From Desulfobacterales bacterium (GTDB lineage Bacteria; Desulfobacterota; Desulfobacteria; Desulfobacterales; JAHDSC01): a stretch of DNA of 35,935 nucleotides. Where the stretch lies: contig JAFGES010000062.1 of NCBI GenBank assembly GCA_016931455.1, positions 1-35,935 of the forward strand, written 5' to 3'. Below the pieces are notes generated by a model that did not search any database, was not told the origin of the DNA, and saw only the letters and a program-made list of their open reading frames with translations. Positions 1,944 to 28,078 of this stretch are shown piece after piece. The position numbers and the translations under genes are program-made. How positions within the stretch are numbered: the stretch's first letter is position 1; every line of letters starts with the position of its first letter.

Positions 1944-2804
1944 TCACGAGTCTGATCGGCTTAGTTCTTTAGAACGTTTGGCGGCAGCTTCAATGGCTGT
2001 GATTATAGTCTGCTTGACCTTGTTATTCTCCATAACTTTGAGAGCTGCTTCAGTTGTACCACCGGGGGATGTTACTTTTTGACGCAGTATTTCGGGCGAT
2101 TCTTTTCGCTCTTCCAAAAGCTTAGCAGATCCTTTCAGCGTAGTCAGCGTCAGCGTTGCAGCATCTTGTGGATTCAGCCCCAATCGTTTACCGGCTTCGA
2201 TCATCGATTCAACCAGATAAAAAACGTAAGCAGGCCCTGAACCCGATAAGGCTGTTACCGCATCCATACATTCTTCTTTAAATTCAACCACACGCCCCAT
2301 GGCTTCAAGTATTGCCCGAGTTAATTTTACATCTTCTCCAATCACATACCGGTTTGTACTCATACCACACATGCCGGCTAAAACAAGCGCAGGGGTGTTG
2401 GGCATCACCCTTATAATGGGCAGTTTTTTTCTATCATTCTCATCAAGTTGAGGATAGAGTAGCCCTTCAATTTTCTGCAAAGTGATGCCGGCGGCAATAG
2501 AGATAATCAGCTTTCTCTCCTCGATCCGGTAGTTTTTACCGGCTGTGATTTGTGAAAGCAATCGGCCGATCTGTTGAGGCTTCACGGAAAGAATAACAAT
2601 GTTGCATTCTGAAAAAAGTTTAAATTGATCTTCAAGGGGCAAAATTCCATATTGGTTACAAATCATGTTAAGACGTTCTTTTCTGATATCGCAGACATAT
2701 ATCTTCGAAGGCGCCGAAAGTTTAGACCGTAGAATAGCCCCAATAAAAGCTTCTCCCATATTACCGGCACCAATAAAACCTATTTTCCGGTTAAGTTCCT
2801 CCAC
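1944..2804 (-). CDS. proC: Pyrroline-5-carboxylate reductase
   Basis: Catalyses the last step of proline synthesis, NAD(P)H-dependent reduction of pyrroline-5-carboxylate. The N-terminus has the Rossmann motif IGFIGAGNMGEA. The C-terminal half has the family signature around SGSGPAYVFYLVESM and SPGGTTEAAL. An open frame extends up to 2864, but the start is better placed at the GTG at 2802-2804: AAAGGAG lies five bases upstream, and the protein then begins just before the Rossmann strand, as in other ProC proteins. This gives 286 residues. First gene of the minus-strand group with ccdA, thioredoxin and the NUDIX gene. Confidence 0.93.
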   Translation of the reverse strand: MEELNRKIGFIGAGNMGEAFIGAILRSKLSAPSKIYVCDIRKERLNMICNQYGILPLEDQFKLFSECNIVILSVKPQQIGRLLSQITAGKNYRIEERKLIISIAAGITLQKIEGLLYPQLDENDRKKLPIIRVMPNTPALVLAGMCGMSTNRYVIGEDVKLTRAILEAMGRVVEFKEECMDAVTALSGSGPAYVFYLVESMIEAGKRLGLNPQDAATLTLTTLKGSAKLLEERKESPEILRQKVTSPGGTTEAALKVMENNKVKQTIITAIEAAAKRSKELSRSDS

Positions 2805-3124
2805 ATTATCTCCTTTGTAATCTTTAATGCAATTCGAATGGATACAGTCGCCGATGTTTTCCACTCACTAATTGGCTTTATTATTTTCAAAATAAAAATA
2901 TACAGATTGAACTATTCTTTGACAATAAAATATGTATCCTTTCGAAACATTTTTATATTTTTTAGGTTTACATTTGGGGTATGTCAATGGCGTTACCTTT
3001 AAATTTCTTGACTTATCTCTCAGAATATATTTAACATACTTAAATTTTAATTTAAGTCTCAAAGAGGAGTAATGTGAGATCCGTTTGAGAAAAAATTTCA
3101 GAGAGTAAAGGAGTTCTGAGTCTT
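2805..3124. other. Divergent intergenic region between proC and yggT
   Basis: About 320 bp of very A+T-rich sequence between divergent genes. It must hold promoters for both directions, but I see no convincing -35/-10 pair. A 64-codon minus-strand frame here (2868-3062) is rich in Lys and Tyr as expected of translated A+T-rich noncoding DNA, so I do not call it. Confidence 0.5.
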
Positions 3125-3424
3125 ATGTTTATAATCGGCAACCTAATTGGCGCTGTTGCATTAGTTCTTGACTATGTTCTGCTTATCTTTATGTGGATTG
3201 TTATCGCGCGGGCCGTTCTATCATGGGTTAATCCGGATCCTTATAATCCTATTGTTCGATTTATCAACAATGTTACCGAACCGGTTTTGTATCGTATTCG
3301 CGCTAATCTTCCAGTAACTTTCGGCGGTATTGATCTTTCACCCATTATCGTCTTTTTGGGAATCATTTTTCTTCGAAAATTTGTTGTTGAGAGTCTTTTC
3401 AGGTTATCTGCAAATTTATCATAA
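3125..3424 (+). CDS. YggT family membrane protein
   Basis: 99-residue membrane protein of the YggT family with two hydrophobic hairpin segments (about residues 8-30 and 70-90). Between them is the conserved ARAVLSWVNPDPYNPIVRF region, typical of the family. AAAGGAG lies eleven bases before the ATG. YggT proteins are linked to cell-envelope organisation, and in Gram-positive bacteria they sit in the ylm-divIVA cluster. Here too a DivIVA gene follows, 21 bp downstream, and proC is divergent. No catalytic residues are visible. Confidence 0.88.
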   Translation: MFIIGNLIGAVALVLDYVLLIFMWIVIARAVLSWVNPDPYNPIVRFINNVTEPVLYRIRANLPVTFGGIDLSPIIVFLGIIFLRKFVVESLFRLSANLS

Positions 3425-3445
3425 GAAATATTAACAGGTGTGCAT

Positions 3446-3949
3446 ATGGAAACAAAACCAATTGATATTCAGCATCAAAAATTCAGGGTAAGATTCAGAG
3501 GCTTCGACATTCGGGAAGTTGACACTTTCCTCGAACAAGCCGCAGAAGCATTTGAATCTCTCCATCGTCAAAATAAAAATTTAAATGATGAAATTCGTAG
3601 GCTTAAACACGAGATTAATTCTTATAAGGAGCGTGAAGAAACATTTAAACGGGCATTGGTCAATTCTCAAAAAGTTCTGGATCAAATGAAAGATAATGCC
3701 CATAAATCCGCTGAACTCATTATTGCTGATGCAGAGGTCAGAGCGGAAAAAATGTTAAACAAAGCGCATAATCGACTGGCTCAATTGCATGAAGACATCG
3801 CCGAACTAAAAAGGCAGCGCATCCAAATCGAAGTTCAAATACGATCAATTATTGAAGCTCATTCCAAGCTTCTTGAAATCGGTAAAGAAAAAATTAAAGC
3901 CACGGATGAGGAGGATTCGAAATTAAAATTATTAACTCAACCCAAGTGA
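3446..3949 (+). CDS. divIVA: DivIVA domain protein
   Basis: 167 residues, with the DivIVA N-terminal lipid-binding module: PIDIQHQKFRVRFRGFDIREVDTF, including the characteristic F.....RG.D..EVD.FL pattern. After it comes a long coiled coil (about residues 30-150) rich in Glu, Lys and Arg. Such proteins form polar or septal membrane scaffolds; the exact partner here is unknown. Translation could begin at the GTG at 3440, but the ATG at 3446 has ACAGG at seven bases, a more usual spacing, while the GTG has it only one base away. It follows yggT closely, so the two are probably co-transcribed. Confidence 0.88.
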   Translation: METKPIDIQHQKFRVRFRGFDIREVDTFLEQAAEAFESLHRQNKNLNDEIRRLKHEINSYKEREETFKRALVNSQKVLDQMKDNAHKSAELIIADAEVRAEKMLNKAHNRLAQLHEDIAELKRQRIQIEVQIRSIIEAHSKLLEIGKEKIKATDEEDSKLKLLTQPK

Positions 3950-18668: not shown

Positions 18669-19580
18669 ATGAAGTTAAAAACAAGCCATTTAGAATTTGC
18701 CGATCAGATAGTTAAAATTCTCGACAGTGGCCTACACTTAAGCAAAGAAGTAGTGCACTATATCGACTCTACGTTCTCAAATCCATCGATAAAGGAACTG
18801 GAAAAAATTATCAAAGATGAGTCCAATTGTGAACGAGATCCTCTAATTGAACTGATATTTTTCCCGGATGAATCCTTTCAAGTCCAATTGGAAGAATTGC
18901 TGGAAAAAGGAGCTTTTCAAACGGCGGACGAAGAGAAAATTATCAATATAATTTCATCAAAAAAGCCGCAAACGATATTGAAGTTTCCGGATCAAAGAGG
19001 TTCTTTGAAACTTGAGCTACCGGAATCAGCTACCACCCAATTCATTGGACGCTTTCATATTTCAAAGCAATTCAACAAAAATTTAATTGAAATAATCGAC
19101 CACTTCGTTGTTGAGCAGCATAGAAATATAGTAAAGGTTAAATTAAGAAACTCCGGTTTTAAACAAACTGAAAATAAAATAGATTTTCTATGTTCTTTTT
19201 TCAAAAAGGTTAACTCAAAAAACATCCTATATTTTGAGATGCTGAATCTTCTTTTGTCCTTTCTGAACGAACTGCAAGATGATACGGATATCTTCAAAGC
19301 CCTCATGAATAAAAAAATCTTTTATTTTAAAGGTGTTCAGAGAGCAAAGAAGATTGAAGAGCAGATGGGCAAAGGCAACTTTGAAATTTGGATGTCTCAG
19401 GGCCTAAGAATGCCTTATGTTGATAAAAACGATCTGCTGAACAAAATGGGATTGATCGACAGAATAAGTCTGGCGGTTTTCGGTCGAACGGATTATTTCG
19501 ATCAGCTCCTTACAAGTGTTGATTTGGGTGAATATAAGGAGGAGAAGAGTATTGATAAAGTCATTGATATTCTTTCATAA
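18669..19580 (+). CDS. Conserved-looking hypothetical protein
   Basis: 303 residues, not recognised. No signal peptide or membrane segment; mostly amphipathic helices with many Lys, Glu and Ile, so a soluble cytoplasmic protein is likely. The N-terminal 60 residues look helical (LEFADQIVKILDSGLHLSKE), and a middle region (about 100-135) is more strand-like. A purine-rich GGGGAAG lies about ten bases before the ATG. It is flanked by a divergent acyl-CoA synthetase and a convergent aminotransferase and is likely transcribed alone. Codon use matches its neighbours and the frame is long and clean, so it is a real gene; I cannot assign a function. Confidence 0.8.
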   Translation: MKLKTSHLEFADQIVKILDSGLHLSKEVVHYIDSTFSNPSIKELEKIIKDESNCERDPLIELIFFPDESFQVQLEELLEKGAFQTADEEKIINIISSKKPQTILKFPDQRGSLKLELPESATTQFIGRFHISKQFNKNLIEIIDHFVVEQHRNIVKVKLRNSGFKQTENKIDFLCSFFKKVNSKNILYFEMLNLLLSFLNELQDDTDIFKALMNKKIFYFKGVQRAKKIEEQMGKGNFEIWMSQGLRMPYVDKNDLLNKMGLIDRISLAVFGRTDYFDQLLTSVDLGEYKEEKSIDKVIDILS

Positions 19581-19635: not shown

Positions 19636-20919
19636 CTATAAGGAACATCTTATCTTCTCTTTGCAAGCGGCAGCCAAGTGGTTATTGTTAGCCGTATTTG
19701 CCTGATTTGAGCTGTCAATATCCTCCGTCAGCTTTGGTAATGCCCGTTTGATTTGCCTCAATGCCTGGCGGATTCGATTTTCATTTTCCACAAGAGCTAA
19801 GCGGAGATAGCCCTCACCATCTTCTCCAAAACCGATACCGGGGGATACTGCGACATTGGCATGCTGCATCATTTGAACGGCAAAATTCATTGATCCTATC
19901 TGCGCATAGGGTTCCGGAATTTTTACCCAAACAAACATACCGGCCTTGGGCTTGGTGACCGGCCACCCCATTTGTTGAAGTCCCCGGCAAAGTACGTCTC
20001 GTCTTTGTTGGTAAATCCGGGCTTGTTGTAATACTTCCTCATCACAATGTCTCAACGCCACAATCCCTGCAATTTGGATGGCTGAAAAGATTCCATAATC
20101 ATAATAACCCTTAATTTTGGCCAGACCTTGGATGATTTCACGATTGCCCACACAGTAGCCCATTCGCCACCCTGCCATATTGTAGGTTTTTGAAAATGAG
20201 CCGAATTCCACCCCCACCTCTCGGGCACCGGGAACCTCTAAAAAGCTGGGCGCAACATAATCATCAAATATAATTTTAGCATATGCGAAATCATGTATGA
20301 CCATGAAGTTATACTTTTTGGCCAAGGCAACGATTTCCCGGAAAAGATCCAGGTTTGCTAGAATTCCTGTCGGGTTGTGCGGATAATTGAGGATTAAAAT
20401 TTTGGGCCGTGGATAAAGCGATTCACACATATTGGCAATTCGCTCCAAAAAAACCTCTTCTGATGCCAGCGGAATGCGTATGACATTGCTACCGGCAATA
20501 ATAGCCGCATAAATATGAATTGGAAAAGCCGGGGTAGGAACCAGAACCGTATCTCCGGGGCCGACAAGCGCCAGACACAAATGGGAAATACCTTCTTTAG
20601 AACCAATCGTGCAAATTACTTCCGACTCACTATCCAGCTCAACTTCATAATCTTTTTGGTAGGCAAGAGCAATTTCTCGTCTTAAATTTTTAAGTCCGGC
20701 GGCGACGGGATATCGATGACTCTTATGATCTCGAACCACATCGCAGAGTTTTTCGATCACAGCCTCCGGCGCCGGATCAATAGGGTTTCCCATTCCCAAA
20801 TCGATCACATCGTCACCCTGCCAGCGTTTTTCCATCTTTATTTTATTAATCATGCCGAATAGATATGGCGGTAATTGCTCCATCCGTTTCGCGAACTGAA
20901 TATTATTATTTTTAGGCAC
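19636..20919 (-). CDS. PLP-dependent class I aminotransferase, alanine transaminase (AlaC-like)
   Basis: 427 residues, fold type I PLP enzyme. Visible: the N-terminal DLGMGNPIDPAP, substrate/PLP contacts YPHNPTG and HDFAYAKIIFD, the PLP lysine in SFSKTYNMAGWRMGYCVG (about residue 243), and the C-terminal substrate arginine in YLRLALVENENR. Overall similarity is to the AlaC/LL-diaminopimelate-like branch that transaminates pyruvate with glutamate to make alanine. The start is GTG at 20917-20919 with AAGGAG six bases upstream. A leader with five consecutive alanine codons and terminators lies upstream (20964-21135). This is independent support for a role in alanine synthesis. The last 25 residues are an Asn/Ala-rich tail outside the fold. 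Confidence 0.85.
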   Translation of the reverse strand: MPKNNNIQFAKRMEQLPPYLFGMINKIKMEKRWQGDDVIDLGMGNPIDPAPEAVIEKLCDVVRDHKSHRYPVAAGLKNLRREIALAYQKDYEVELDSESEVICTIGSKEGISHLCLALVGPGDTVLVPTPAFPIHIYAAIIAGSNVIRIPLASEEVFLERIANMCESLYPRPKILILNYPHNPTGILANLDLFREIVALAKKYNFMVIHDFAYAKIIFDDYVAPSFLEVPGAREVGVEFGSFSKTYNMAGWRMGYCVGNREIIQGLAKIKGYYDYGIFSAIQIAGIVALRHCDEEVLQQARIYQQRRDVLCRGLQQMGWPVTKPKAGMFVWVKIPEPYAQIGSMNFAVQMMQHANVAVSPGIGFGEDGEGYLRLALVENENRIRQALRQIKRALPKLTEDIDSSNQANTANNNHLAAACKEKIRCSL

Positions 20920-20963
20920 CTTATTCTCCTTATTTCAATTTCAAAATCTGAAATATCAAAAAC

Positions 20964-20992
20964 AAAAAAACCCCGAACCATTCGGCCCGAGG
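20964..20992 (-). terminator. Second leader terminator upstream of the aminotransferase
   Basis: Read on the minus strand: a nine-pair stem (CCTCGGGCC with GGTTCGGGG, including G-U pairs), a four-base GAAT loop and seven T residues. It lies between the first terminator and the aminotransferase start, so transcripts must pass both to express the gene. Confidence 0.85.
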
Positions 20993-20994
20993 CT

Positions 20995-21029
20995 AAAAAA
21001 TGCCATGGGCTCTTTAAACAGCCCATGGC
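20995..21029 (-). terminator. First leader terminator (attenuator hairpin)
   Basis: A perfect 10-bp stem (GCCATGGGCT with AGCCCATGGC, plus-strand 21002-21011 and 21020-21029) with an eight-base loop. On the minus strand it is followed by A and six T. It begins about 29 bases after the leader-peptide stop codon. Its 5' arm overlaps the antiterminator arm at 21023-21041 by seven bases. Confidence 0.92.
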
Positions 21030-21097
21030 GTCAGCAACAGCTTTAATTTGAATTATTTTATACGCTGCCGATCGTCGCCTGGACTGAGTCCATCGCG
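21023..21097 (-). promoter_or_regulatory. Putative alanine-responsive transcription attenuator (alternative RNA structures)
   Basis: Three mutually exclusive pairings can be drawn on the minus-strand RNA. Hairpin 1:2 (21076-21097) pairs CGC..TGGAC with GTCCA..GCG around a TCA loop, directly after the alanine codons. Alternative 2:3 pairs 21064-21082 (CCA, GGCG, CAGC) with 21023-21041 (GCTG, CGCC, TGG). Region 3 shares seven bases with the 5' arm of the first terminator. A ribosome stalled on the alanine codons would cover region 1, free region 2 to pair with 3 and prevent termination. A ribosome that reaches the stop codon would cover region 2 and allow termination. Pairings were drawn by hand. 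Confidence 0.75.
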
Positions 21098-21135
21098 GCC
21101 GCCGCAGCACTGATTATCTGCTTTAATTTATTCAT
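21058..21135 (-). CDS. Leader peptide of the aminotransferase attenuator (25 aa, five consecutive Ala)
   Basis: The minus-strand ATG at 21133-21135 opens a 25-codon frame reading MNKLKQIIS, then five alanines (GCT GCG GCG GCC GCG, 21094-21108), then MDSVQATIGSV and a TAA. Six of its 25 residues are alanine. The Shine-Dalgarno sequence is weak, as in many leaders. It lies between a promoter and two terminators in front of an alanine-type aminotransferase, so its job is most likely to sense charged tRNA-Ala through ribosome stalling. It is not expected to make a functional protein. Confidence 0.8.
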   Translation of the reverse strand: MNKLKQIISAAAAAMDSVQATIGSV

Positions 21136-21172
21136 CTTAAGTTATACTCGTATATTCTTTTCAATTTTATTA

Positions 21173-21201
21173 AAAATATATTAACCTTGATTGTATGTCA
21201 A
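21173..21201 (-). promoter_or_regulatory. Promoter of the aminotransferase leader
   Basis: On the minus strand: a perfect TTGACA (plus-strand 21196-21201), a 17-bp spacer and TATTTT (21173-21178). Transcription would start near 21166, about 31 bases before the leader-peptide ATG. Confidence 0.6.
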
Positions 21202-28002: not shown

Positions 28003-28078
28003 GGTCCCATCGTCTAGTGGCCTAGGACGTCGGCCTCTCACGCCGGTAACGCGGGTTCGAGTCCCGCTGGGACCACCA
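28003..28078 (+). tRNA. tRNA-Glu (anticodon CTC)
   Basis: 76-nt cloverleaf with encoded CCA. Acceptor GGTCCCA pairs with TGGGACC; the anticodon stem is TCGGC/GCCGG with loop CTCTCAC and anticodon CTC (reads GAG); the T arm is GCGGG TTCGAGT CCCGC. Discriminator A75 and CCA at 28076-28078. It serves as the integration target of the island that follows. Confidence 0.97.

Follow-up and report, generated by a model that had tools for sequence, protein, structure and literature searches.

The region upstream of an AlaC-like aminotransferase gene of a Desulfobacterales bacterium is very probably a ribosome-mediated transcription attenuator, which would read the level of charged tRNA-Ala and control the gene. 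The region was found in positions 1 to 35,935 of contig JAFGES010000062.1 (assembly GCA_016931455.1), and this whole stretch of 35,935 nt is called the window here. A leader open reading frame (ORF), a run of Ala codons, their spacing, and the complementarities B:C, C:D, E:F, and D:E between the segments of the leader were established by sequence inspection and comparison, and they point to stalling of the ribosome, sensing of tRNA, an order of folding, and a role of D:E.

The leader extends over about 20964-21201 of the minus strand and was read directly from the sequence. It starts with a sigma-70-type promoter (TTGACA-17-TATTTT, 21173..21201, with TTGACA at 21201-21196 and TATTTT at 21178-21173), which scored 10/12 in a promoter scan, and continues with a leader peptide ORF of 25 codons plus stop (21058..21135, translation MNKLKQIISAAAAAMDSVQATIGSV*). 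Five control Ala codons of this ORF, GCT GCG GCG GCC GCG (21094..21108), form segment A, the 5′ part of which is able to pair with the end of segment B. Segment B (21064..21086) starts 7 nt past the Ala run and is the 5′ strand of the putative antiterminator helix B:C, the 3′ strand of which is segment C (21019..21041). The 3′ part of segment C doubles as the 5′ arm of terminator 1 (C:D, 21002..21029; 10 bp followed by ATTTTTT, segment D at 21012-21002). Terminator 2 (E:F, 20969..20994) has 11 bp followed by a T-rich stretch, and its segment E (20993-20984) is complementary to segment D. Further downstream, also on the minus strand, the Shine-Dalgarno sequence AGGAG (20926..20930) precedes the aminotransferase gene (19636..20919, 427 aa), which starts with GTG at 20919. 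An initial annotation had listed the promoter, the 25-codon ORF with five Ala codons, the two terminators, and the Shine-Dalgarno sequence of the gene, and direct reading verified each of them at its place. It had also proposed an alternative pairing, which turned out to be real but longer than the 21064-21082 with 21023-21041 assigned to it, namely 21086-21064 with 21041-21019. The fold z-score of the leader was -3.4, and 1 of 200 shuffles folded equally well. Four terminator-like sites were present (two of them overlapping, in terminator 2) versus 1.0 ± 1.1 in shuffles, and promoter-like sites in the leader kilobase of the window were not in excess (4 versus 2.9 ± 1.5 by chance).

These parts suggest the following course of events. 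When alanine is plentiful, the ribosome would pass the Ala run and cover segment B, whereupon terminator 1 and terminator 2 would form and transcription would stop. When charged tRNA-Ala is short, the ribosome would stall on the run and cover segment A, and segment B, 7 nt downstream, could pair with segment C while the latter is being made, which would block terminator 1. A free terminator 2 would halt the polymerase even then, but the freed segment D could pair with segment E and thus weaken terminator 2, and the gene would be transcribed. Without translation A:B would pair, and the switch would be off.

The gene product is a class I/II PLP aminotransferase (PF00155). The best NCBIfam model was that of the alanine transaminase AlaC (YfdZ; NF006033, residues 10-394), and with 527.3 bits the enzyme of the window falls under the equivalog cut-off of 647, and therefore it is called AlaC-like. 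Its nearest solved relative, 2x5d, is named probable aminotransferase, and alanine would be its product. The gene is possibly transcribed alone, because its 3′ end faces a convergent ORF (18669-19580, plus strand, 303 aa), for which no Pfam or NCBIfam match was found at E up to 0.001. An alanine dehydrogenase is also encoded in the genome, and thus the aminotransferase need not be the sole source of alanine. Elsewhere in the window a bacterial large SRP RNA (RF01854; 13691-13939, plus strand) and a tRNA (28003-28075) are encoded.

Close orthologues of the gene (E up to 1e-150) were found in 113 of 389 genomes of the order, and the upstream DNA was examined for 71 orthologue loci, with 41 further genomes of f35, a large family of orthologues, outside this set. 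An Ala-leader ORF was present within 1 kb upstream in 42 of the 71 loci. At one additional locus, L031, an inserted ORF with a Cas12f1-like TNB domain separates the gene from the leader, which is located about 1.8 kb upstream. The leader was not seen in the remaining 28 loci, i.e., all 22 f35 loci and L044, L058, L060, L066 (463 nt available), L067, and L075 (gene start unsure). Within 350 nt upstream, 36 of the 71 orthologues had a short ORF containing four or more Ala codons (36/49 outside f35, 0/22 inside), in comparison to 0/22 upstream regions of paralogues with 49-52% identity, 4/534 flank windows, and 0/720 dinucleotide shuffles. At L037, L046, and L051 the distance between leader and gene is 400 to 650 nt instead of about 200 nt, and at L209 (527-2391) the Ala leader is separated from the aminotransferase gene by an ORF with a Cas12f1-like TNB domain, presumably of the transposon type. 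The initial annotation had asked for conservation in orthologous leaders. Wherever the leader is present, the Ala run, the spacing, and both mutually exclusive helices are indeed kept, with compensatory changes, but the leader is absent at the 22 f35 loci and in several other lineages, and L035 and L065 have no proper run.

A survey of 80 named loci, many of them from the same genomes as the first set, revealed the leader in 31 of 67 Desulfobacterota and 0 of 13 planctomycete loci (counted from the listing); loci with less than 100 nt upstream (L156, L186, L192, L196) were scored as leaderless, and short-run ORFs at L149, L160, and L205 were judged to be chance and left out of the count. The leader occurs, among others, in Desulfosarcina widdelii, D. 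alkanivorans, D. cetonica, Desulfoluna, and Desulfatitalea, and also in Desulforhabdus, Desulfacinum, Desulfogranum marinum, and Desulfobulbus elongatus, including named Syntrophobacteraceae. In this named set no leader was found at the loci of Desulfobacula, Desulfotignum, Desulfamplus, Desulfopila, Desulforhopalus, Desulfofustis, and Desulfobulbus alkaliphilus. A quick tree of 99 orthologues requires at least 8 changes to explain the presence of the leader, compared with an average of 31.6 in shuffles. This distribution would suit an old element that was lost several times.

Genomes were also searched with an RNA model. It gave 42 matches below 1e-9 among 389 genomes of the class, and 41 of them are on the contig of the aminotransferase gene, while the remaining one precedes an EamA transporter gene. 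These class tallies are lower bounds, as the genomes G211 and G212 are absent from the list of model matches (leaders L037 and L068, 123.9 and 84.8 bits, respectively). A search of 395 genomes of the phylum gave matches (E up to 1e-5) in 14, ten of them before this aminotransferase and four before other genes. The leader before the EamA-family transporter gene (L210:630-1714, minus strand) is of the Ala type, with 56.7 bits and three consecutive Ala codons.

The control codons were analyzed in the 42 leaders, for most of which an open Ala frame had been the search criterion. Four to six consecutive Ala codons were present in 39 of them (six in 8, five in 25, and four in 6 leaders); one further leader has three, and two have degenerate runs (Ala-Thr-Ala-Thr in L035, Ala-Ala-Ser-Ala in L065) and nevertheless kept the helices. 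Eight leaders were found by the RNA model alone (L209, L210, L225, L229, L230, L232, L234, L237). All eight have an open Ala frame, with four or more consecutive Ala codons in seven (L210 has three). Across 60 leaders the first and second bases of the five Ala codons are nearly always G and C (at each position at least 94% of rows, lowest 47/50), and any of the four letters occurs at the third base (three of them at codon 3). As judged from this comparison, fixed first two bases together with a variable third base are the pattern of a selected peptide. A chance Ala run was ruled out by the orthologue, paralogue, and shuffle counts together with the third-position variation, which also speaks against a pure RNA element. 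The Ala run ends 7 nt before the core of the B:C helix in 38 of the 42 leaders, and the stop codon is located 8-11 or 23-32 nt past the start of the core. From this spacing and the dimensions of the ribosome, a ribosome on the first Ala codons would leave the core free, and an advancing one would cover it. A loosely defined Shine-Dalgarno-like motif was detected upstream of 30 of the 42 leader ORFs, and the absence of a strong one is a weak point of the leader in the window. A strict scan yielded promoter-like sites before 19 of the 42 leaders, compared with 105 of 840 shuffles. According to PMC1183508, the sensitivity increases when control codons make up a large fraction of the control region, and a run of Ala codons alone fits this point.

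The helices were evaluated with an alignment of 61 rows, comprising 60 leaders and one antisense artefact (L043, minus strand), which was kept in the alignment tests of B:C, terminator 1, and D:E and dropped from the 60-leader analyses. The alignment model lacked the B:C helix. Nevertheless, 96.1% of the cells of the B:C core were paired, versus 20-55% in slid controls, and four of its six pairs had changed on both sides. None of 500 shuffles reached the percentage, the number of cells with a double change, or the covariation score, while 12 reached the number of double-change pairs and 26 the number of pair types; all shuffle and swap statistics ignore kinship, and relatedness inflates the shuffle tests. 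One core position includes A-U, G-C, and G-U pairs, another C-G, U-G, and U-A, and the tree implies a minimum of four switches of the second core pair between A-U and G-C. RNAalifold picked the B:C helix in the 42 leaders without any structure input. The duplexes had a mean of -28.2 kcal/mol for cognate strands versus -19.4 kcal/mol when strands were swapped between species (0/10000 permutations). In many leaders the outer part of the helix (columns 38-49 with 79-88) is poorly paired, and therefore the claim for the whole phylum is confined to the core. Terminator 1 was paired in 89.2% of the cells (slid controls 17-45%), with pair types and double-change pairs no better than in shuffles (reached by 33 and 81 of 500, respectively); in the 42-leader alignment its pairing is lowered by six leaders of the L036 type, the terminator arms of which are off by about four columns. 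The bases of segment C serve both B:C and C:D, and at each of five positions 46 to 60 of the 60 leaders allow either pairing. The A:B helix, formed by the Ala run and the end of segment B, appears weaker than both, with 71.2% of the cells paired (slid 21-50%). One of its five pairs fails in 25 of 41, and its pair types and double-change pairs are at shuffle level (242 and 497 of 500). At equilibrium folding the terminators were more stable than B:C even with segment A masked, and the on state was not reproduced, so the switching must be kinetic. Such a result is expected of a kinetic switch, but it is no evidence for one.

Several of these results bear on other explanations of the leader. It could be a conserved structured RNA, i.e., a small RNA, a riboswitch, or a protein-bound leader, the GC-rich run of which pairs and merely resembles Ala codons. 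The run is indeed GC-rich and able to form A:B as described above, and a unit of two terminators could yield a stable short RNA. However, the variation sits on third codon positions, the open Ala frame was kept in all eight leaders found by the RNA model alone, 41 of the 42 strong class matches are on the contig of the aminotransferase gene, and no Rfam family matched, which makes this explanation improbable. Alternatively, the nascent peptide itself could arrest the ribosome independently of tRNA-Ala charging. Single-residue runs can slow translation, and the residues past the run are similar within clades. Among clades, in contrast, the residues flanking the run differ widely (DSV, RSTARA, GNTVRV, CRLAAF, ARKTAWATVG) while run, spacing, and helices stay constant, and Ala runs are not known to arrest ribosomes, so that an arrest peptide seems slightly less probable still.

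The least probable explanation, to which we give hardly any weight, is that two ordinary terminators of an upstream transcript happen to follow a chance ORF and that the gene has another promoter. It would account for the fact that both hairpins are good intrinsic terminators and that the strict scan found a promoter-like site before only 19 of the 42 leaders. Yet such a pair of terminators would not keep the B:C helix, an Ala ORF, and a fixed spacing, and the near absence of Ala ORFs from the paralogue, flank, and shuffle controls argues against it as well.

For an attenuator responding to charged tRNA-Ala, the second terminator suggests a his-like architecture of six segments in which the two terminators are coupled, which goes beyond the initial annotation. 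D:E, which joins the 3′ arm of terminator 1 and the 5′ arm of terminator 2, was paired in 73.9% of the cells (slid 24-48%), with one of ten columns never pairing and with pair types and double-change pairs not above shuffles (387 and 186 of 500). The duplexes had -16.6 kcal/mol for cognate and -13.0 kcal/mol for swapped strands (0/10000 permutations), and with automatically found stems a seven-pair D:E was present in four of the six L036-type leaders. Terminator 2 as a redundant back-up is doubtful, because D and E are complementary and co-vary. As segments C and E resemble each other, the complementarity of D and E could also stem from a past duplication of the terminator.

The T-tails of the two terminators were counted in two ways in the 60 leaders. 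With fixed columns a T-poor terminator 1 was combined with a T-rich terminator 2 in 13 leaders, the reverse was found in 7, and both were T-poor in none. With automatically found stems the respective numbers of T-poor tails were 11 (terminator 1 only), 4 (terminator 2 only), and 6 (both), the last being Desulfoluna leaders in which the stem finder had absorbed the T-tract into the stem, and thus the counts are boundary-dependent. Under both methods terminator 1 is clearly T-poor in L035 and L132, and terminator 2 in Desulfoluna and L004. In the Desulfoluna leaders (L068-L073) a C-rich stretch follows terminator 2 in place of a T-tract (0-2 T of 10). Some of the segment E bases that are complementary to segment D fall in the loop of terminator 2, outside the E:F pairing. 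They match segment D with eight pairs in L069-L071 (both sides having changed in L070) and more poorly in L068, L072, and L073.

The topology of the enterobacterial his leader is A:B, C:D, and E:F against B:C and D:E. The leader described here shares with it (RF00514) the six segments, the two alternative sets of helices, the run of control codons, and a final terminator E:F opposed by D:E. In contrast to the his leader, it has Ala instead of His codons and a different gene, and most leaders have a T-rich tail after C:D (at least 5 of 9 positions in 47/60 with fixed columns, at least 5 of 8 in 43/60 with found stems); RF00514 had no match in the window. No Rfam family reached its gathering score on the leader (best sub-threshold matches 10.9-21.2 bits, E 0.059-4.6), and a known Rfam element was ruled out. 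Attenuators are known that sense His, Trp, Phe, Thr, Leu, or the branched-chain amino acids, and alanine is not known to be sensed in this way. PMC1183508 lists leader-peptide attenuators of E. coli and Salmonella for Trp, His, Leu, Thr, Ilv, and Phe. These have in common with the present leader a leader peptide with control codons, mutually exclusive antiterminator and terminator, and a gene for the same amino acid, and they differ in the amino acid sensed and in the two apparently coupled terminators found here. An alanine attenuator was not found in the accessible parts of the open-licence literature (PMC1183508, PMC2965389, PMC1262725, PMC13392391); the word alanine is absent from PMC2965389 and PMC1262725, and PMC13392391 concerns thr. 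Within this literature, the alanine specificity of a leader-peptide attenuator is probably new. If the proposal is true, alanine joins the amino acids read by leader-peptide attenuation, its control in this way would be widespread and probably old in sulfate reducers, and a poorly annotated clade of aminotransferases would gain independent support for a role in alanine synthesis. The coupled terminators would offer a simple model of how a two-terminator leader is opened by a single stalled ribosome.

Weak matches of the RNA model were mostly other attenuators of the same two-terminator layout, with different control codons and genes; one weak match, L227, had no recognizable attenuator. Twenty aromatic, Trp, and Leu leader loci of Desulfobacterota were analyzed (L211-L224, L226, L228, L236, L238-L240), a biased sample, as likeness to the Ala model was the basis of their selection and some of them are closely related. 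Both terminators could be parsed in 17 of the 20 loci, and D versus E had -10.9 to -24.9 kcal/mol (mean -17.8 versus -14.0 kcal/mol swapped; 0/10000 permutations). The leader peptide was not recognized in L221 and L240. It is tempting to speculate that the attenuators of Desulfobacterota share a domino design, in which two terminators would be opened one after the other, the disrupted first terminator releasing an arm that breaks up the second, in which the leader peptide would set the amino acid (Ala, Phe/Tyr/Trp, or Leu), and from which some lineages would have lost one T-tract. This generalization is offered tentatively, with somewhat less than even confidence, because the T-tail counts depend on the stem boundaries.

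The genes behind these other leaders, named in part by similarity, presumably encode DAHP synthase and a DeoC/LacD-family aldolase (aromatic/Phe leaders), a TrpB2-like protein (PALP; Trp leaders), and LeuA (Leu/Ile leaders). Phe or mixed aromatic leaders of related genomes (L216, L218, L219, L222, L223; L212-L214, L221, L224, L226; L217, L220) precede DAHP synthase-like and DeoC/LacD-family aldolase genes, which were checked with Pfam for L213 and L218. The phylum matches before other genes included a Trp leader (L236), a possible Trp leader (L238), and an aromatic leader (L239). L238 (1380-2570) has the peptide ..IGWWWAGSS.. and two terminators and precedes a gene for a Phenol_MetA_deg-family protein. 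The bacterium's own genome contains an aromatic leader of the two-terminator layout with the peptide MKIRFFYFCFFRFFSGFYFKK... (L228, about 380-1894; C92 about 2280-3800, plus strand). The gene behind it encodes a phenylacetate-CoA-ligase-like enzyme, and the aromatic leader peptide in front of the gene hints at a function of this ligase in the synthesis of aromatic amino acids.
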